Source: Ascidia mentula (lineage: Eukaryota > Chordata > Ascidiacea > Phlebobranchia > Ascidiidae). Taken from it: 64,000 bases of DNA. A program made the translations under genes and the position numbers. The stretch is taken from positions 8,003,001-8,067,000 of the forward strand of contig OX387199.1 of NCBI GenBank assembly GCA_947561715.1. The letters run 5' to 3'. Shown here piece after piece: positions 1-46,171 of this stretch (its first letter is position 1; every line of letters begins with the position of its first letter). The notes beneath the pieces are model-generated. The model saw only the letters and a program-made list of their open reading frames with translations, was not told where the DNA came from and ran no database searches.

Positions 1-2404
1 TTGGTGGAGTCCCAATAAACGCAAGCAGCAACGTGAGTATCGTTTTCACACTGAAATACCACAGTATTTCTGGTTGCGATATTTATGAGATAGTAAGCAT
101 GTAAAAAATAACTTTCGATCTTTTGCATAAAAGATAGCTTAAGTATCTATTTTTATTATTAAAATGAATAAGAACGTATTAACGACTGTTTTAGTATTTC
201 AAAAAGTGAGTATGGAGATTAATTCTTTTGACATTTTGTTTCTTGCTTCTTGTCGCAGTCAACTTACCGATTTGATGGCAAAACGCAGAGTTGCTTCCAC
301 AATACTACGGGGATCAGTTTGTCGCGTCACATTATCGAACACCGTTGCCGACAAAATAAAGTCCGAGACAATTTCACTGTTGCTCCCTTGAAACTTGTCG
401 CTGTTGTATGCAGCGAAAGATATCCGCGGTGCTAGAGAGTGTGAAGATTTGGGACATTTCAATCGCTGGTAACAGTTGAAAATGTATACCTTTGTTTGGC
501 GGTATTGCGTCACGCGTAACTGATATGTACGACGGGACGGAATTGTTCGGCTTTGCACGAGTTGTTGCCGTCGAATTTAGGTTTTCCAATGAGAAAGTAA
601 AATAGAGGTTAACTGCATTGAAAACAAATTAATAAAACTCCTAGCTCGAATTAACCTCGATGAAAGCGAAACAAATTACCTGCGTTTGAGGTGGAAATGA
701 CAGCAACGGCAATGTCATCACCGTTAAACGTATATAGTCCTGCTGATAGGTTAACTTTGGCTCCCAAACTATCTACGACGTTAAAAATGCTAAAAGTAAA
801 GTAATTCGTATGAAATAAGCCCGTTCATCATAGCGATTTGTTTATCATCACCTCTCTGTCTCAATTTCGTCAAGTTGAGTGGTTTCATTCAGTACCATAT
901 CAACCTCGTTGACAAGTTCGTCCGTTTCCTAAAACAGATTATAGGAAATAAATGGAAGGTTACATTTTTAATCGAATTTTACTGTCATGGAGAGAGTGCT
1001 GCTGTTATCGATGATGTCCTGGATGTTTTGGAGTGCGACCAACGTCATTGAGGCCCCTAAAATCAGTGATCACTGTCAAAACGCCTTTTACTGCTGCCTG
1101 CTTTGGACTATCTTATTGCCGAAAGTATTATTTCATATGTTGCAAAAAATTGAAACCACAGAAATATTCAAATTAGGACTGACAGCATATTTGTAAAAAA
1201 CTGATATAGCAAGGCCCATATTGCTATTAACACTGTCATGTTAAAGACGTTTCGACAAAAACTTTTGTCATCATCAGTTTGACTGATATAGCAATATTTA
1301 ACAAAATTTATGTTTAAATAATTTTACCACAAGCAACAAAAGTCTTACCGTTAATTGATTTGCACAGCCATACAAATGACTCATGATCGCTGGGCTTTAT
1401 GGAAATGTATACAACCATGGCGTTTGTGAAGTAGGCAATCACGTCGCAGTCTTGTCTGCACACTCCTAAATCACTTCCTTCCACATGGGTTAAAATGTTA
1501 TTGTTTAAAGTCCAATTAGAGTACGTTAAAGTGCTTTCTTGAACATGCAAGCCGGTAAAAAACTGGATATATCCAGTGTTGTTGTTTCCTATTGGTTGTG
1601 AGGACGATACTGCGTAAGTTTGTACAAGTTGGGAGACCTCGTTCAGAACGGTTTCATCAAGGGTGCCCAGGGCGCTATTGCACAAGCTGCATGGGGTTTC
1701 TTGCAAATGCGGACAATATAAAGCATCTTCTTCAACTTCTAAAAATACACGTTTTTAACTAAATGCGTGTAAAATTTAACTCCAAGTTACCATAGCCACA
1801 TTCACAGATTGCCATAGGGGAACACCTGGGGTAACTTGAAACTATTGTAACAGAAGCAGTGTTTTCGCGACAGTCAAGATTGTTTATCCATTCAACACGT
1901 AGTGCGCAATATCCGTTGCACTCTGTCCTCCTGCAGATGCCATCAACCGCTAATGTATTGTTGCTCACGGTCCACGACGAACACTTTAACTCGTTAATAC
2001 CGAACCAGTAATACTGAACTGAAGCTTCGCAATATCCGCGAAAATCGATGATCTTGTTAAGTGCCAGATCCAAGGTGGTGACGTTTGTTATGTTTGCAAG
2101 GTTGCAAAGTCCATCAAGTGAATGATAACTCCCGATAGCAGTCGAAAAAGACAAATCACTATTCGGAACATCTATGCAGCTTGAGTCTCGGCCTACGAAC
2201 ATTACGTCGTAGATGATACAAAACCGCTAATATTTTTCGGAGAAACATACTTGACAGCAGTTTTTTTAATCCAAAAAGCAACAGTGGTAATGTTATTTAC
2301 ACCGGAAAATCTCATATTTTAAACTTACCCGAGTGAAAACTTCCAATCGACCAACATGCGCAAATAACTAGCAAGCAGAAAAAACAACGAAGTCTGAAAA
2401 CCAT
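1..2404 (-). CDS. Adhesion GPCR paralogue A (5' part; runs off the window start)
   Basis: Nine exons read on the minus strand: 2404-2329, 2192-1791, 1738-1349, 1056-983, 928-852, 789-680, 612-490, 431-268 and 50-1. All junctions are GT-AG and the phases agree. The first exon encodes a signal peptide (start MVFRLRCFFCLLVI). Two Cys-rich exons follow with many N-glycosylation sites; I recognise no named domain there. Short exons then build an alpha-helical stalk and a GAIN domain (PRISFAAYNSDKF...SEIVSDFI). The last exon opens the GPS (ENDTHVAACVYWDSTK) and is cut by the window edge, so the GPS cleavage site and the seven helices lie outside. By family, adhesion GPCRs are surface receptors that self-cleave in the GPS. 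It lacks the mucin exon found in B and C. Ligand unknown; a member of a three-gene tandem array. Confidence 0.85.
1218..1297 (-). ncRNA. Hammerhead ribozyme-like motif in a sense intron of gene A
   Basis: Read on the minus strand, the core CTGATGA (1277-1271) is followed by one extra T, a 7-bp stem II (GACAAAA/TTTTGTC, 1269-1254), then GAAAC and GTC. Stem I is closed by GTCAAA/TTTAAC with one mismatch, and further out by a perfect 10-bp helix, ATATTGCTAT (1297-1288) with ATAGCAATAT (1227-1218). Stem III would be the minimal palindrome ACGT, as in the short type I hammerheads known from Penelope-like elements. It lies in the intron 1348-1057 of gene A, on the same strand as the gene. The extra T after CTGATGA departs from the consensus, so activity is uncertain. 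Confidence 0.55.
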
Positions 2405-5227
2405 TCTGAAATTTCGGATCAAGTTGTCTGTCTTTTGTATCAGCTTGCAGTGCAAACTTGTTGCAAACAACACTTTTCAGCATTGCTATCTTAAATCCTT
2501 TTTCCTTTGCTGGTAATACAACAAAGAAAAAAAGGTTTGAAAACAGCAGTCAGCTGTAACCTTTTGTGATGTAACAGCGACGTTTAGCGGTGGTGGATAA
2601 CCTACGTTAACAGTATTTAAATATTTCAATATTTCAATATTGCACTAAAGCGATAAATGCGATGCCCTGATATTTTAGTAGACAATATCAGGTAGAAACC
2701 AACTTTGTAAGCGAATGTCTTGAATTTCTACAACGGCAGAACCTGCAAAGTTGTTGTATGTGACCTATATTGTGTCATTTGTTCAAACTTCGAGCAAATT
2801 CCTTAATGACGTCATAATGGACATATTAACAATGTGTGGGATTGCAAATCTAAACGTTTTCTACGGAAGCGGTTCCCAAGCATCAGATATAGACCAAACA
2901 TTCCTGTTTAATGTGAATCTGATTAGTGTGTTGCAGTGTTGCGTTCGCCTGCTGTTATTGAGCGTCTATAGCCTACAGTAATATTCTATTTTAAATTACC
3001 TTTCTTAATTGTTTTATATACTTTTTATTCCATTTAAAGCAATTCTGTCAGTCATAAGAAATATACAACCACTCCTAAACCAATGCAGAATTCCTTCTTT
3101 TCAACAAACTGCTATTTTGTGCATGGTCAGTAATGCGTATCCAGCGTGCCGCACAAAACGAATTATTGAACAAGAATGTTGGAAACACCCTATCGGAGGG
3201 GGACTAACAAAGAATGCTCCTGAAAATTGCACTATGCGGTCTCAGATTTCAATGCGGTGAGCACCGTCTTTGTGTTTTTGAAAACTCTACACGCAGCACT
3301 TTCCCGAACAAAAATTTTTACTGTGTGGTTTGTACGCCTTCAAACCTACAGTGCAGTAAGGGATCAAGATATCTCCCACTTTGACCAATATATAAAATGA
3401 CGCTGCATAAACACGCGTCAACAATGAATACATTTCCTTTCCAATCTGTTGTAAATTTAATGTGCTGCTTCAAGGAATATTGCAAGTTTGACGTATGGAA
3501 GGCGAAACGTCAGTCAATTAAAATTCATGTAATTTTTTGCACTGCACGGATTGTTGAACAAAAATTTTGAAAGTCCAGCAAATCTACAGGTATGCTGTGC
3601 TCTGACAACAACTCTACGCCGTTGCAAATTACTGGTCAGTGAATACATGCTTTGGTAAAATATTTGTTGTCGGGTGGGCATTCTGATATAAGTATCCAAA
3701 TGGCTGGTATGTCGCAAATAGTTACAACAAACTGGAATCTATAAACTTATTGAAGCAATTTCACCTTGACGGTGCGTAGCTGCGCATTTCAACTTTGTCC
3801 GAAATATAGACCAATAGTTTTGTTCGCGACATAGTTTAATTTCAAGAATAAACAATTTGATATCGTATATGTATGTATACTGTGCACTGTTCTTCAAAAA
3901 GTTTTCCTGGAGCGTGAATATTTGCTATACATTCTTTGTTAGGTACCATGACCGGACTCATTTTTGTTTGACTGCATTTAAGAAATCTTTTACATTTCGA
4001 TACATTAGTTTTTTAGCACGATTTCGTCCACTGAATTCGGATCCTCTAAATTTGGTTGGATGGAAATTAGGGATATTTTTTCCATATTCTCCTAAAATCA
4101 TTACTTTCAAACTTGTGTTTACCAGCTACAGTTTTAACGTGGCCTACAGTGCTGTGTGTCTTGGGGAGCAGTTCTCGGATCATCAACCAAGAATGTTGAA
4201 AAAACCCTCGATGGGGGTCAAGAACGGCAAAAGGAATGTTGTTCGAAAACGTCGTTGCAATATGCCAAGGCGAACCAGTGGTTACGTGACATCGTGAACG
4301 ACGCGATAATATATCCACGTTTGCATCGGGTGGCATGTAAATGTAGAAGGTGTTGTGGCAGAAAGATCCGAGTCTGCAGAAGAAAGGGATTGTCGGCAGA
4401 CACAACAATCACTTTTTCCCCACAATGCTGTTTGTTCGTGGTCAGTGATGCGTATCTCGTTCTGCAGTGCTCTACCCGTCGAACAAGAATGTTGGAAACA
4501 ACCTTTCGGGACGAGCTAAGCAAACGAATGCTTAAAACATTGCTTTATTTGCATTAGAAAATTGATCAACACTTTTTTAGATGCAAAAGCAAAGCAACTT
4601 CTTCGTTTACTAACACGTGACACGAAAAAATCTTACAAAATTTATACAATGAGCAAGTTAACTGCAAATCCTGCACAAAGTTTTGTTAAAGAGTGTTTAC
4701 AAAGCTGTAGTTTTTAAGCGGCATCAGGCATGCGTATCTAAGGAAGCAGTCTTGCGTATCTTGGGACTCAGTCAGTGGAAGAACATCGAGCAAGAATTTT
4801 GGAAACACCGATTAGGGACGACTAAAGAAATGGAATATGCTGTGATAACTTTGTTGTTATTTATCAAGTCGAATATTACATTTTTGGTACCACTTTGAAA
4901 GTTGCAAAAGTATGCGTGGTCAGTCGTGGTTGAAAAGTACTTGAAGTTGAAAGCACACGATACTTCATAGAGGCCAAGATATATATTTAAATTTTTCGTG
5001 TTCCGCTATGCACTACCTTGATGTTGTTTAATTGCGAATCATTGGATAATGTTTTACGGTCCCAGGACAACGGTAAAAATGCACATTTCGGATAAAAGTA
5101 GCATATATGGGACACACAACATATGGGTTAATTTTCGTGTTACTCGTTTGGAAAGATTATTTCTTCTGTTAATTGCGCAAGCGTGACAATGATCATCTGT
5201 TAGTTGTTTTGTGCGTGGATCAACTTT
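2405..5227. other. Intergenic gap between genes A and B
   Basis: This stretch separates the start of gene A from the last exon of gene B. I find no exon set or long conserved reading frame. It holds the degenerate interspersed repeats listed separately, and the 3' UTR of gene B must lie at its right end. Confidence 0.6.
3121..4835 (+). repeat. Degenerate repeat family, at least four copies between genes A and B
   Basis: Related blocks occur at about 3125-3215, 4150-4235, 4441-4535 and 4728-4830. Shared words are CAGTNATGCGTATC, then GAACAAGAATGTTGGAAAC followed by a G/A-rich run. The copies differ from one another by many substitutions and small indels, so the family looks old. No terminal inverted repeat or coding capacity is visible. 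Confidence 0.5.
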
Positions 5228-8200: not shown

Positions 8201-10709
8201 CACATGCAGCGAAAGTACCGATTTGATGGCAAAACGCAGAGTTGCTTCCACAATACTACGGGGATCAGTTTGTCGCGTCACATTATCGAACACCGTTGCC
8301 GACAAAATAAAGTCCGAGACAATTTCACTGTTGCTCCCTTGAAACTTGTCGCTGTTGTATGCAGCGAAAGATATCCGCGGTGCTGGAGAGTGTATAGATT
8401 TGAGACATTTGTGTATTAAAATGAACATGCCAAAGTACCCTTGTTTGGCGGTATTGCGCCACGCGAAACAGATATGAAAGATGGAACGGTAACGGTATCA
8501 CCGGGATTCGTACCAGTGACCTCCGTCGAATTAAGGTTTTCCAGTGAGAAAGTAAAAAAAGGGTTATCTGCATAAAACAAATGTGCGAATGTGCGAATTG
8601 GTCCAGAGAAAAACGTAACTTACTTGTGTTTGTGGTGGAAATGACAGCAACGGCAATGTCATTACCGTTAAATGTGTACAGTCCTCCTGAAAGGTTGACT
8701 CTAGCCCCCAAACTGTCTATTGCGTTAAAAATGCTAAAAACAAAATTTATTTTTTAGGTTAAATCGTTTTCCACGATGTATTCATCTTTACATGTTTGTT
8801 TCGTTTTCGTTAAATTGATTGGTTTCATTCAGTATCACACCAACTTCGTTGACAAATTCGTCCGTTTCCTATAAACAAATAAAGGATGAAAAGAAATGAA
8901 CTTTCCCAAATGCTCTAAAGTGAATTTTACTATGGTTGTGAGAGAGCTGCTTTGATCGATGGAGTCCTGGATGTTCTCAAGTGTGATCAACGTATCTGAG
9001 ACCAAATGCAAAATGGGATATATCAAAACGTGTTTTATTGTCTTGCACGCGTGATGAAGATAACACGGCACTTAAACCAATGGTTCTCAACCTTTTAGTA
9101 CTTTCGGACCAGTAAAGTAACAAAAAAACTTTTACGGTCCGGTTATTTTCTGAAATGTAAACAAAAATTTTTTCATTGGGGTCTTAACGAAAACTGCACC
9201 TCCAAAACTACACAGTTATATCGTGATGAAAAGTTTTTTGAGTTTAACACCTTGTGGTCATTGCTCAAGTTCAAATGCAAAAGTACCTTTAGTTGGCGGA
9301 ATCGTTGTGCCAATCGATACTCCAGCGGATGATGGAATAACATTGCTAGTTGCCGTCGAGCCGATGCTTTTGTATGAGGAAGTAGGGTTGGGCGTTGAAG
9401 CATCTGCGTTGCAGACAAGTTAATAAACTCGTGAAAACAATACAATTTGAACGTCAAAAATAATTTCCCACTTAGACAGGCAGTCCTGCCTCCCACGCCC
9501 ACTCTAACCAGAGGAAAATAAACCAACACTTTCTGTCGTATGGATTATATATTTGTTGTCGCCTGCAGTGAACGTACGAACTTTGAAAATACGCAAAAAA
9601 AAATTTTAAAATATGTTAATTCACGTATTATTATTAATATGCAAGGTACACAACAAGTTTTAAAAACGCCTTACCGGTGGTTGAGGTGCAAAGCCATGCA
9701 ACCAAATTATCGTTATCTTTGGGCAATATGAAAATGTGTATAAACGTGACGTTTGCGAAGTAGGCAATCACGTCGCAGTCTTGTCTGCATACTCCAAAAT
9801 CACTTCCTACCACAGGGGTTAAAGTGTTGTTGCTAAAAGTCCAATTTGAGTACATTAAAGTGCTTTCAGGAGCCGAAAAATGTGTGCAACCCGAGGTTTG
9901 GCAGGTAGGTAATGTGTTGTTAACTCCTGTATCTTTTAGAATAATTTGTATCCATTGGTAAACCTCGTTCAGAACGGTTTCATCAAGGGTACCCAGGGTG
10001 CCATTGCACAAACTGCACGGAGTTTCTTGCAAATGCGGACAATACAAAGCAGGTGCCTCAACAACGGCAAAGCCTAAAGATAAATGCGGGCTTTTAACCA
10101 ATTGCACATAAAGTTTAACCCAAAGTTACCATAGCCACAGATTGCCAAAGGGGTACATTCATGGTAACTTGGAACTATTGTAACAGAAGCGGTGTTTTCG
10201 CGACAGTCAAGATTGTTTGTCCATTCAACACGTAGTGCGCAATATCCGTTGCACTTCGTCCTACTGCAGATGCCATCAACAGCTAATGTATTGTTGCTCA
10301 CCGTCCACGACGAACAGTTCATCTCGTTAATGCCGAACCAGTAATATTGAATTGACGCGTTGCAACCCTTGTGTAAAACGATGTTGTGGAGCGCCAGACT
10401 TAAGGTGGTGTAATTTGTTATGTTTACAAGGTTACAAAGTCCATCAAGTGAATGATTACTGTCAGTAGCAGACGAAAAAGACACATCGCTATTTGGAACA
10501 TCTATGCAGCTTGAGCTTCGGTCTATAAACACAAGGTTAGTGCATATGACATTGTTATTTTTTGCCGCATTTTTATCAAGTTACCAAATTGTCTCAAATG
10601 CGTAATCATCCTAGATATAAAAAAACTTACTCGGGTGGAAGCAACTTCCGATCGACCAATTTGCGAAAACAACCCATAGACAGAGAAAATAATGAAGCCT
10701 GGAAGCCAT
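5228..10709 (-). CDS. Adhesion GPCR paralogue B
   Basis: Seventeen exons: 10709-10631, 10522-10130, 10073-9675, 9403-9287, 8995-8931, 8868-8792, 8733-8624, 8567-8439, 8382-8219, about 8077-7935, 7858-7752, 7219-6997, 6661-6525, 6306-6177, 6111-5964, 5642-5534 and 5348-5228. They encode a signal peptide (MASRLHYFLCLWVVF), two Cys-rich exons, a 39-residue Ser/Thr-rich exon, a GAIN domain, a GPS with HLT, then a secretin-type (7tm_2) bundle with landmarks LLATFGWMLVEG (TM3) and VAWIFGF (TM6). The tail ends SKKEFSKTPSQI. Phases agree throughout except at the GPS exon: the homologous acceptor AG is missing and the nearest AG shifts the frame. B may therefore be damaged, differently spliced or misassembled there. 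It is closest to A; one GAIN exon is identical to that of A. Confidence 0.8.
8165..8219. repeat. Short dispersed repeat abutting the GAIN exon donor of gene B
   Basis: The segment beginning AATAAACCAACAC, with CTGTCGTAT and ending near GAAAGTAC, resembles 9517-9577 in another intron of the same gene. It ends exactly at the donor of the GAIN exon, whose splice site here reads gtactt rather than the gtaagt of gene A. The repeat has probably replaced the original intron start. Confidence 0.45.
9078..9180. mobile_element. Possible hAT-type transposon terminus in an intron of gene B
   Basis: The stretch around CAATGGTTCTCAACC, followed by a GGACC-containing, AT-rich run, resembles the terminal sequence of many hAT (Charlie-like) elements, which start CAGTGGTTCTCAA. 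I see no transposase, no opposite terminus and no target duplication, so this would be a solo fragment at most. Confidence 0.3.
9517..9577. repeat. Second copy of the short dispersed repeat in gene B
   Basis: This is the partner of 8165-8219. Both read AATAAACCAACAC, then a TCTGTCGTAT block, TTGTTGTC or TCGTTGTC, TGCAG and a GTAC end. It sits between the mucin exon (9403-9287) and the second Cys-rich exon of gene B and has no coding role that I can see. Confidence 0.45.
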
Positions 10710-11950
10710 TCTAAACTTCAGATCAAAATTCAGCTATTGCGAACTCCCAGCATTGATCGTAAATGCAAACTTGTTGCTGAAACCCCTTGTTTTTAACGTG
10801 GTGATGTTAAACCTTTTTCCTTTGTATGCAACGCCCCGAGAAAAAAATTCGATTTTCCATTGTTTCAACGTCATATTTGGAGAAGGAATTTACCCACCTT
10901 TGTGACGTAATAGCGAGTTTTAGTGACTTTGGTTCATTTTACGCCTCACTGACTTTATTATTTTTTAAACCAGTGAATGCACAACTGTGTTTGTTACAAA
11001 CATATTTTCAAGAAAAACCTCGCACATTGCTGCTGTCAACAGCTGCACTGATGAGACCTTACAGGTCGAAACAGTGGGTATACCCGGTTTGCAGCTCTCA
11101 GTAATTATTCTGGCTTTTTTCCATATCTAAAGAAAAACTACTCGGATGTTGCAGTGTTTTTTTGGATGTGGTGCCGTGCTTTTGTTCAATTAATGCCAGG
11201 TTTTCGATAAATCCACTAACTAGCTATTTTAAGGCCAATACAAACCAAGTCAAATCCGGAATAACGATATTTTATTACACCAAGGTCTTGAAAAAGACAG
11301 GAACGTTATTGTGCATTAATTAAACGGTCTGTTGCACGCAGCGTCGCGTAAGTTGCTGAAAAGAATCCTAAACCTATACGGTTACCTTTCATTTTGGTGC
11401 TCGCTCTCTGTAGGGCAACTACTTATGCTGTGCGGGTAATTCATTGGGGTCTTAGATTTTGAAAAACTGCATTTCCACTTAATTACTTTAGGTACATCAA
11501 AACTTTTCAGCGGTTACTAATTACCGACGTATAACAAGTAAAGAAACAACAACACCAGTCACCATCTTGACTGTGATGAACATATAAACGTTAATACATG
11601 CAAAATTTTACAAACAGTATTTCCTCTCTAAAAACTTTCATTGTGTGGCTATCTCTTATATCGCTGCACTTATGACACAGGTAAACACCAATTGCGATTA
11701 TGGTATGAATCACCTACTTTGCTTGATACAGATTCTTTTAATTTGCGGCAAATGTTCATGACTTTATAACCTCGTGACAACAAAACATACAGGAACAGGA
11801 GACATATTTCCACGCATTGTAAGCCTGGTTGACGAAACTGTTACCGCAGTTAGCTTTAAAATTCTAATCTTCTTACTCAATTTACAACGATCACAAACAC
11901 TATTTCATATGCACAACAACATGTTGTGATTTTCCAACAGGTGATGCGTA
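10710..11950. other. Intergenic gap between genes B and C
   Basis: No exon with a recognisable product is seen. It should contain the 3' UTR of gene C on the right and the promoter of gene B on the left. A minus-strand AATAAA lies at 11276-11271, about 675 bases beyond the stop of gene C, and is a candidate polyadenylation signal. Confidence 0.5.
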
Positions 11951-14900: not shown

Positions 14901-17900
14901 GTGTCTAATTTACACTTACCCGATTGAGCGAAAATAACAGTATAGCAGATAAGTTACGGGAATTGTCTATTGTTCCGTTGGAAGCAAGAGTTGCCGAAAG
15001 GATGAAGTCTGAAATAATTTCAGTTGTTCCAATCAAGAAATTTTGACTGGTGTAGGCAGCAAATGATATTCTCGTTGCTACAAAACATAAAAAGTTGTTA
15101 ATCCCGTCACTATCAATGATAATACTTGTAAATCTTTGCTTACCAGTTGTTTGTGTCAACTCATTGGAAGGTATGAAGATGTACGAAGTTGCTGTGGCTG
15201 AAAGATCAGATTGGGAAGAAGAAGAAAGGGATGCAGATGTCAACATGTTGTTTCTTCCGATAACAAAAGCCAAGTTGTCTATGTGAAAAAGGTTGGTGTG
15301 AATGCGACCTACCATCGCTTTTCTGTTTTTTCAGGTTTTGTCATAATGTACCTTTGGTTTTGGAAACGACAGTGACAGCAACGTCATCACCAGTATAGCT
15401 GTATGATCCACCCGAAATGTTGACTTTTGTTGCTAAGCTATCAACAACGCCAAAAAACCTATACAACATGCATAATATGAAAACTGTGCACAAACTGCTG
15501 TTGGGTTTGAGGGTTTTACTCTTCTGTCTCCATTGCGTTGATTTTTTCGGTATCCTTATTAAGTAGGTCGTCGATCTTACTCGCAATTTCGTTCGATTCC
15601 TAAAACGTATTACGTTTCAATCTTTAACGTGCAAACTACGCTTGTAATGAAATAAAATTTGTGTTACTGTGACAGAAATGCTGCGACTTCCGTTGATACT
15701 GTCTTTTATGGATTGCAATTTAGTTGGAAGCTCTGCAGTCGAAGTAGTTGGAAGTTTTGCAGTCGAAGTAGTGGGAAGTTTTGCAGTCAAATTAGTTGGA
15801 AGTTTTGCAGTCGAAGTAGTAGGAAGTTTTGCAGTCGAATTAGTTGGAAGTTTTGCAGTCGAAGTAGTAGGAAGTTTTGCAGTCGAATTAGTTGGGAGTT
15901 TTGCAGTCGAAGTAGTTGGGAGTTTTGCAGTCGAATTAGTTGGGAGTTTTGCAGTCGAAGTAGTTGGGAGTTTTGCAGTCGAAGTAGTTGGGAGTTTTGC
16001 AGTCGAAGTAGTAGGGAGTTTTGCAGTCGAATTAGTTGGGAGTTTTGCAGTCGAAGTAGTTGGGAGTTTTGCAGTCGAAGTAGTTGGAAGTTTTGCAGTC
16101 GAAGTAGTAGGAAGTTTTGCAGTCGAAGCAGTGGGAAGTTTTGCAGTCGAATTAGTTGGGAGTTTTGCATTCGAATTAGTTGGGAGCTTTGCAGTCGAAG
16201 TAGTTGGGATTTTTGCAGTCGAAGTAGTAGGAAGTTTTGCAGTCGAATTAGTTGGAAGTTTTGCAGTCGAAGTAGTTGGAAGTTTTGCAGTCGAAGTAGT
16301 TGGGAGTTTTGCAGTCGAAGTAGTAGGAAGTTTTGCAGTCAAATTAGTTGGAAGTTCTGCAGTCGAAGTAGTTGGAAGATTTGTAGTCGAATTAGTTGGG
16401 AGTTCTGCAGTCGAAGTAGTTGGAAGTCTTGCAGTCGAATTAGTTGGGAGTTCTGCAGTCGAAGTAGTTGGAAGTTTTGCAGTCAAATTAGTTGGAAGTT
16501 CTGCAATCGAAGTAGTTGGAAGTTTTGCAGTCAAATTAGTTGGAAGTTTTGCAGTCGAAGTAGTTGGAAGTTTTGCAGTCGAAGTAGTTGGGAGTTTTGC
16601 AGTCGAATTAGTTGGAAGTTTTGCAGTCGAAGTAGTTGGAAGTTTTGCAGTCGAAGTAGTTGGGAGTTTTGCAGTCGAAGTAGTAGGAAGTTTTGCAGTC
16701 CAATTAGTTGAAAGTTCTGCAGTCGAAGTAGTTGGAAGATTTGTAGTCGAATTAGTTGGGAGTTCTGCAGTCGAAGTAGTTGGAAGTCTTGCAGTCGAAT
16801 TAGTTGGGAGTTCTGCAGTCGAAGTAGTTGGAAGTTTTGCAGTCAAATTAGTTGGAAGTTCTGCAATCGAAGTAGTTGGAAGTTTTGCAGTCAAATTAGT
16901 TGGAAGTTTTGCAGTCGAAGTAGTTGGAAGTTTTGCAGTCGAAGTAGTTGGGAGTTTTGCAGTCGAATTAGTTGGAAGTTTTGCAGTCGAAGTAGTTGGA
17001 AGTTTTGCAGTCGAAGTAGTTGGGAGTTTTGCAGTCGAAGTAGTAGGAAGTTTTGCAGTCAAATTAGTTGGAAGTTCTGCAGTCGAAGTAGTTGGAAGAT
17101 TTGTAGTCGAATTAGTTGGGAGTTCTGCAGTCGAAGTAGTTGGAAGTCTTGCAGTCGAATTAGTTGGGAGTTTTGCAGTCGAAGTAGTTGGAAGTTTTGC
17201 AGTCGAAGTAGTTGGAAGTTTTGCAGTCGAATTAGTTGGGAGTTTTGCAGTCGAAGTAGTTGGAAGTTTTGCAGTCAAATTAGTTGGAAGTTTTGCAGTC
17301 GAATTAGTTGGAAGTTCTGCAGTCGAAGTAGTTGGAAGTTTTGCAGTCGAATTAGTTGGGAGTTTTGCAGTCGAATTAGTTGGAAGTTCTGCAGTCGAAG
17401 TAGTTGGAAGTTTTGCAGTCGAATTAGTTGGGAGTTTTGCAGTCGAAGTAGTTGGAAGTTTTGCAGTCAAATTAGTTGGAAGTTCTGCAGTCGAAGTAGT
17501 TGGAAGTTTTGCAGTCGAAGTAGTAGGAAGTTTTGCAGTCGAAGTAGTTGGAAGTTTTGCAGTCGAATTAGTTGGGAGTTTTGCAGTCGAAGTAGAATTA
17601 AGTTTTGCAGTCGAAGTAGTAGGAAGTTTTGCAGTCGAAGTAGTTGGGAGTTTTGCAGTCGAAGTAGTATGAAGTTTTGCAGTCGAATTAGTTGGGAGTT
17701 TTGCAGTCGAAGTAGTAGGAAGTTTTGCAGTCGAAGTAGTAGGAAGTTTTGCAGTCGAAGTACTAGGAAGTTTTACAGTCGAAGTAGTAGGAAGTTTTGC
17801 AGTCGAATTAGTTGGGAGTTTTGCAGTCGAAGTAGTAGGAAGTTTTGCAGTCGAATTAGTTGGAAGTTTTGCAGTCGAAGTAGTAGGAAGTTTTGCTGTC

Positions 17901-45417: not shown

Positions 45418-45867
45418 ATTTTATTTTGACATATTGTTGCCAAGTAATGTCCCATCATTCTTGTATTATGAATTGAAAGCATGCTGCAGACCTTTGTTTA
45501 TTTTCCAAAATTTGAAAACACTGATCTGCATAGGATAAAAATCAACCAAAAAAAGTTTAATGTGAATATTGAAAGTGAACTCCATTGTTACAATGTCGAA
45601 TTGTTTTTGTAACGAATGGGAGGTGTGTGTGTTTTTTGCACTGCTATTCTTCAGATTGCTTTTTTTGCCATGCTGTTGTGTTGCGCAGTTTTTTTTGGGT
45701 ACACCCTTGTACATTTTCCTGCCATTTTGACTTGTGTGTTCATTTATTTACTTTTGTACCTTGAAAACTGTAAAATAAACTCGTTAACAAAACATGCTTG
45801 TTTTTAGTTTACTCCAAGTATACCCAAAAAGTACCTGTAACTTACAGCAAAATTGCGGCATCAATAC

Positions 45868-45899
45868 CTGATGAAGTCTTGCCGCATGGCAGATGAAAC
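45868..45899 (+). ncRNA. Degenerate hammerhead-like motif between Pax and cadherin
   Basis: CTGATGA, a stem with TGCC / GGCA around GCAT, then GAAACGTT. Core words are intact but stem II is weak and no stem I pairing is obvious. The matching part of the second duplication unit lacks it. Confidence 0.3.
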
Positions 45900-46171
45900 G
45901 TTGAATAAATACAGCATGTATGATTTATGCCAGAAGAGCAGTACATTTTAAATTGCAATATGCCTGGCAGCAACAGAAATTTCAAAAGTCATGTCATGTT
46001 TTCTTTGTTGTGGTGAAGTAGGTAGTTTCTGTGGATCGTTAGATTTGCTGCAGTTTAATCATTGACACCTTTCATTTTTAAAATCATTGCTGATGGTGTA
46101 ATGTCAACTTTTCTTGCTGCAAGAGTTGAGAGTATTTGAAAACTGGAAGTTGTGAACAAATGTGTAGTTGG

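Follow-up and report, generated by a model that had tools for sequence, protein, structure and literature searches.

A minimal hammerhead motif in an intron of Ascidia mentula is most likely a fragment of a Penelope-like retroelement

We report a minimal type I hammerhead motif in a short insertion within an intron of the ascidian Ascidia mentula. It lies in a 64,000-nt stretch of DNA that was analysed as a whole (hereafter the window; assembly GCA_947561715.1, contig OX387199.1, positions 8,003,001 to 8,067,000). With a probability of roughly 0.9, the 70-nt insertion is a severely 5′-truncated copy of a Penelope-like retroelement (PLE) whose parent encodes a reverse transcriptase (RT) and a GIY-YIG domain, and it most likely has no effect on the gene that hosts it.

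The minus-strand sequence of the motif and its flanks is TTGCTATATCAG-TCAAA-CTGATGA-T-GACAAAAGTTTTTGTC-GAAAC-GTC-TTTAACATGACAGTGTTAATAGCAATATGGGCC-TTGCTATATCAG. Positions 1277-1246 of this stretch comprise CTGATGA, a single T, stem II, GAAAC and GTC, with helix I flanking them on both sides, so that the order of elements given in an earlier note on this DNA was found as claimed. The hammerhead box CTGATGA (C3 to A9, 1271..1277) was recognized in the sequence, by a descriptor and by a covariance model, and an extra U at 1270 separates A9 from helix II. Helix II, formed by GACAAA and TTTGTC around the loop AGTT (1254..1269), is likewise seen in the sequence, in the predicted fold and by the covariance model. 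The segment 1246..1253 carries GAAA and CGTC, which provide the GAA box, the ACGU that replaces helix III and the GUC cleavage triplet; from the known hammerhead rule the cut is predicted between 1246 and 1245. In a hand-written structure, the 5′ side of helix I (GTC AAA, 1278..1283) is partnered by 1245-1243 and 1237-1235 of its 3′ side (TTT AACAT GAC, 1235..1245), yielding three A-U pairs, then an internal loop and then three more pairs. The window copy thereby shows the type I order CUGANGA ... GAAA ... UH together with helices I and II. The helix III site consists of ACGU alone, a length at which a hairpin is impossible, and the ACGU of two copies could pair with each other. This layout supports the earlier assignment to the minimal Penelope-type hammerheads with ACGT instead of helix III. 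An AUG is present at 1271-1269, with 26 nt from there to the predicted cut.

The host intron occupies 1057..1348 of the minus strand (GTAAGA...TTTTAG, 292 nt, phase 1). Its splice sites were read from the sequence, and the reading frame continues across 1348-1057. The 7tm_2 exon of the gene lies a short way beyond the left edge of the window (L076 4468-4151, E=3.3e-7), and the suggested location of the motif in sense within an intron is supported. The putative adhesion-GPCR label of the gene rests on this 7tm_2 match and on the length of the extracellular part. A scan of 12 ORFs matched neither a GAIN nor a GPS model. Two tandem adhesion-GPCR-like gene copies with about 78% DNA identity are located at 265-2201 and 8216-10531 on the minus strand, and the 7tm_2 exon of the neighbouring copy lies at 7257-6913 (E=6.1e-6). 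The neighbour (10531-8216) is 78% identical on either side of the intron, the introns themselves do not align, and the paralogous intron was set aside as a candidate for the empty insertion site as it is unalignable.

A descriptor of the minimal form (CTGANGA, 0-1 extra nt, stem II of at least 4 bp, GAAACGT plus A/C/T) matched twice in the window and not once in 200 first-order Markov copies of it, which served as the control in place of exact shuffles. The motif in the window exceeds chance. A covariance model, R1, trained on eight other cores with the window copy at 1277 left out, found window 1282-1240 (-) at 22.8 bits (E=5.7e-4, both strands of the 64 kb; E-values of the tool used are rough). 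Its other matches in the window were 45863-45908 (+) at 64.9 bits, which is a training sequence, and one at 10.3 bits and E=2.3, that is at chance level. The first of these is a second PLE-type minimal hammerhead, CTGATGA-A-GTCT..AGAT-GAAACGTT, with at least 46 other matches of 81-93% identity among the candidates scored.

The Rfam covariance-model check proposed in the earlier note went against a hammerhead: no hammerhead match was found in the whole window at the gathering threshold or, up to E=10, in the 801 bases around the motif, where three snoRNA matches stayed far under their cut-offs. This silence is weak evidence here, since Rfam gave equally no hammerhead match on five descriptor-positive PLE loci (L041, L050, L057, L058 and L059). 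A genome search with RF00163 returned no match, but 14 controls were also unrecovered, making it uninformative. The lack of an Rfam match, together with a best predicted fold that is not a hammerhead, would fit a chance look-alike, in which CTGATGA happens to lie near GAAAC in AT-rich intron DNA. This explanation is hardly credible in view of a repeat family with ribozyme-shaped covariation and of the pattern CTGATGAN{12,24}CGAAACGT, which yields 1,482 genome matches against 1 for the reversed-pattern control.

The covariation was assessed among relatives of the parent element. The RT has 62 matches in the same genome, and 20 end regions were taken, five from the 3′ side (46-52% identity) and 15 from the 5′ side (31-36%). 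Fifteen of the 20 were descriptor-positive, against none in 200 Markov copies of those regions; no descriptor core was present in L043 and L046-L049, where looser strings appeared unconvincing by eye. Among the 15 positive regions the core lies on the same strand as the RT match in 10 and on the opposite strand in four (L053-L056), and in L052 it sits between RT matches of both strands; these five exceptions may be read as inverted copies. Helix I differs by family (AGTA/TACT, TTCT/AGAA, AACC/GGTT, TAC/GTA, CTC/GAG and AAA/TTT), and is weak in some copies, with 1 bp at window 45868 and 2 bp in L058. In an alignment of eight cores 88.6% of the cells pair, versus 22-47% with the partners slid, and in eight of 11 pairs both partners vary. 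A 24-match alignment (16 distinct), fitted to the covariance model, gave 87.0% of cells paired and again eight of 11 such pairs. The both-side changes are split between helix I (4/4 pairs) and helix II (4/7 pairs). The 8-core alignment omits the T-type families (L041, L042, L044, L045 and the window copy), all of which except L045 were regained by the model search for the 24-match alignment. Neither the covariation score nor the number of cells paired was reached in any of 500 shuffles of either alignment. Two of the five measures were not clearly above shuffles: further pair types were reached by 94 of 500 (eight cores) and 50 of 500 (24 matches), and the corresponding figures for pairs with both-side change are 11 and 29. 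The consensus structure was drawn with a hammerhead in mind, a bias in favour that the slid controls address only in part. Across the relatives, helices I and II covary.

The canonical rule that helix II directly follows CUGANGA does not hold for the window copy, and the earlier note regarded its extra T as the main departure from a hammerhead. That judgement was wrong, as the residue is a family trait. Among the first 100 cores listed (all from contig C1, 59 distinct), helix II forms at three or more of four pairs with one extra residue in 97, with none in 0 and with two in 4, for a search pattern that leaves the register of helix II free. The extra residue is A or U in 99 of these first 100 PLE-type cores (T 51, A 48, C 1). 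Canonical spacing is present but rare, since of 23 genome matches to CTGATGAG plus the same downstream part, seven fit at three of four pairs without an extra residue and 19 with one, four of the seven fitting both. We treat the residue as a variant trait because in the retrozyme-like cores of this genome helix II follows the box directly. A literature search, whose coverage excludes the primary consensus papers, gave no mention of an extra A/U in PLE hammerheads in the parts of the sources it reached. As a separate observation, among the 47 matches to the family at 45868, 18 lie at about 19.5-21.0 Mb on contig C70, along with nine of the 23 CTGATGAG variants, which looks like the spread of one variant by a local burst or duplication.

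The borders of the insertion were set by its target-site duplication. The PLE-derived 70 nt, TCAAACTG...ATATGGGCC (1213..1282, minus strand), contain the hammerhead and little else, and are flanked by a perfect 12-bp duplication with one copy of TTGCTATATCAG at 1283..1294 and the other at 1201..1212, both on the minus strand. The genome-wide match shared with the window copy covers 74 bp (1286-1213), and the additional four nucleotides TCAG (1286-1283) are common to the target duplication and the element, a microhomology. Of the other 29 loci checked, 12 match the window copy at every one of the 70 bases (1282-1213), which makes 13 identical loci among the 30 extracted when the window is included. 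From this identity the insertion is judged to be recent.

These borders bear directly on a two-part stem I with a perfect 10-bp helix, by which the earlier note had extended the ribozyme. The complementarity between 1297-1288 and 1227-1218 exists and is perfect, but it is not part of the ribozyme. Its arm ATAGCAATAT (1218..1227, minus strand) is derived from the element, and the arm ATATTGCTAT (1288..1297, minus strand) is most likely host target DNA; with the perfect 12-bp duplication around the window copy, it is best read as the target site plus three bases. The sequence directly before the shared part differs between the window and all 29 other loci, and ATATTGCTAT is missing at the corresponding place in 29 of 29; L012, L013 and L014 do contain this word, but 43-82 nt upstream and within an inverted element copy. 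A 10-nt complement to the element was reached in 51 of 20,000 random 30-mer draws from the window, a total that includes skipped draws from excluded stretches. The flanks of 12 other copies reach just 5-7 nt, for which reason the 10-nt complement is taken as an accident and the idea that the element chooses self-complementary targets was rejected.

The putative parent was found on contig C72, where cores adjoin long ORFs on the same strand: three in L031 at 9279-9206, 6579-6506 and 3896-3823 (-), spaced about 2.7 kb apart with ORFs in between, and one more in L032 at 4142-4215 (+). The 806-aa ORF of L032 matched RVT_1 with E=1e-12, and its C-terminus is GIY-YIG-like (E=0.001, 19.8 bits, just below the cut-off of 22.6). 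In a solved-structure search the sole match was a bacterial group II intron-type RT (E=0.0034), and a distant-mode search of a phage collection gave no match. Three features by which PLEs are recognized are found here, namely an RT and a C-terminal GIY-YIG in one ORF, tandem copies with pseudo-LTRs, and target duplications of variable length.

In the 195.8-Mb genome, a 161-base query recognized 52 places including the window. At least 51 matches lie elsewhere, 42 of them of 70-75 bases at 97-100% identity and nine of 31-61 bases; since scoring covered 40 of the 334 first-look candidates, these counts are lower bounds. The 5′ upstream extents vary from 9 to over 1,200 nt across most of the 30 loci. 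At the 3′ side, 16 of the 30 stop 51-58 nt and 10 stop 80-91 nt past a 30-nt anchor, giving two preferred ends about 33 nt apart; L006, L007 and L010 extend past both, and the window copy ends earlier than either, after GGGCC. These 3′ boundaries are automatic and approximate, the automatic value for the window copy extends into its duplication, and L019/L020 as well as L017/L029 have flanks in common and hence do not count as independent. Target duplications measure 12 bp in L004, 13 bp in L009 and 9 bp in L030 and in L019/L020 (one event), with 12 bp in L003 as judged by eye; at most of the 30 loci boundary inspection recognized no clear duplication. A TIR/MITE reading of the inverted pairs was dropped, as 5′ ends and duplication lengths varied and RT ORFs are present. 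More generally, the motif might be a short mobile unit of the retrozyme or MITE kind, a non-autonomous ribozyme of about 70 nt that moves on its own. The insertion does correspond almost exactly to the hammerhead, short copies and inverted pairs are numerous, and the window copy and L014 share the same TCAG start. Most of the 30 loci start elsewhere, however, as expected for 5′-truncated PLEs, and the retrozyme-like family of this genome has a different sequence and canonical spacing, leaving such a unit very improbable.

Could the motif cut the pre-mRNA of its host gene, as the earlier note had suggested? An active cis-acting ribozyme that tunes expression in the manner of the human intronic hammerheads would agree with the intact core, its sense orientation inside the intron and the additional 10-bp clamp enclosing helix I. 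We consider this very unlikely. The best predicted fold of 1297-1218 has -21.6 kcal/mol and hides CUGAUGA in the pairing ATCAGT/ACTGAT, compared to -10.4 kcal/mol for the predicted hammerhead fold with the 10-bp clamp. The hammerhead fold lies 6.4-11.2 kcal/mol above the best fold in the window copy (6.4-7.9 in shorter contexts), energies that leave out tertiary contacts. The core is thus trapped in the best fold, though this misfolding is not peculiar to the window copy, given that the parent copy L010 shows a similar gap (6.3-6.4; 0.5-9.6 in other family members). Furthermore, there is one copy only and helix III is absent, and the insertion is recent, hence there is no signal of selection at this site. 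A PLE hammerhead of Anolis was reported to be inactive without protein and to cut only with it (PMC11167929, as far as the accessible text goes). As a lone copy without a partner, in a young insertion, the motif may possibly cleave within the intron, which is unlikely, and a function for the gene is less likely still; the claim of pre-mRNA cutting remains unsupported for a lone copy without helix III and with an unfavourable predicted fold. Transposon debris that brings a ribozyme into an intron is easily mistaken for a regulator of the gene, and here the persuasive clamp helix itself is most likely host target DNA.

According to the preferred interpretation as a truncated PLE copy, the minimal type I hammerhead belongs to the pseudo-LTR of the element, where it directly precedes the ORF and, in the tandem arrays, also follows it. 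In the parent arrays it would cleave tandem transcripts, probably by dimerizing, with the palindromic ACGU segments of two copies forming a common helix III, or else with help from the element protein. Reverse transcription may have begun inside the element RNA and ended early, leaving the 70-nt copy and the 12-bp duplication. This copy would now be removed with the intron by splicing, the gene most likely being unaffected. We further note a testable regularity: there are over a thousand PLE-type cores, nearly all of those inspected carry the extra A/U, and the helices covary. The contrast with retrozyme-like hammerheads of the same genome, which lack the extra residue, could reveal its role. 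A more speculative extension, which we deem unlikely, is that the PLE hammerheads of this genome form a structural variant of their own, with the near-obligatory unpaired A/U between A9 and helix II coupled to the palindromic ACGU in place of helix III and with catalysis dependent on a dimer or the element protein, and that intron insertions are dormant cut sites awaiting the element protein.

Two further repeats were noticed in the window. At 11038-11097 (+) there is a retrozyme-like repeat copy, a full type I hammerhead with an apparently decayed cleavage triplet. The core of its family is CTGATGA-GACC TTACA GGTC-GAAAC with canonical spacing, and a 29-nt core with at most two mismatches has 2,299 genome matches versus none for the reversed control. 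These repeats are tandem in places, with a period of about 287-294 bp; among 11 loci examined, 10 together contain 11 motifs and L067 is without any. Rfam gave sub-threshold matches only, at two of the loci (RAGATH-1 and type III hammerhead). The other is a tandem repeat with a unit of 24 bp, starting at window position 15577 and extrapolated to end at about 18100, where the GC skew is strong; 95 copies were registered, 30 of them listed.

Minimal type I hammerheads in the pseudo-LTRs of PLEs were reportedly described by Cervera and de la Pena in 2014 and by Luense, Weinberg and Breaker in 2017. In the accessible portions of two further accounts such hammerheads are minimal, without helix III, perhaps active as dimers, and dispersed in thousands of copies in animal genomes (PMC6155905, PMC7761336). 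The Ascidia family resembles them in the type I order, the lack of helix III and the location in tandem pseudo-LTRs, and the window copy differs from them as a lone 70-nt fragment in an intron. Compared by description, the Poseidon/Penelope element PAc of Anolis carolinensis shares the tandem array and GIY-YIG, and its hammerhead overlaps the ORF start (PMC11167929, available part). It has two internal start sites of reverse transcription, of which the two common 3′ ends of the Ascidia copies are reminiscent. Hammerhead activity was measured for PAc and required protein, whereas the Ascidia motif is a predicted ribozyme. Metazoan retrozymes are similar in carrying type I hammerheads in dispersed retroelements, and most of those in invertebrates are said to have helix III (PMC7229834, available part). 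The family at window 11048 has both helix III and canonical spacing, in contrast to the motif at 1218-1297, which has neither. It also corresponds better to the definition of retrozymes as tandem repeats of 170-400 nt with a type I hammerhead than does this motif in a 70-nt PLE fragment. Finally, the human C10orf118 and RECK hammerheads are likewise located in spliceosomal introns (PMC3088659, available part). They are conserved throughout mammals, RECK also in birds, and are described as active, whereas the window copy is a recent insertion.
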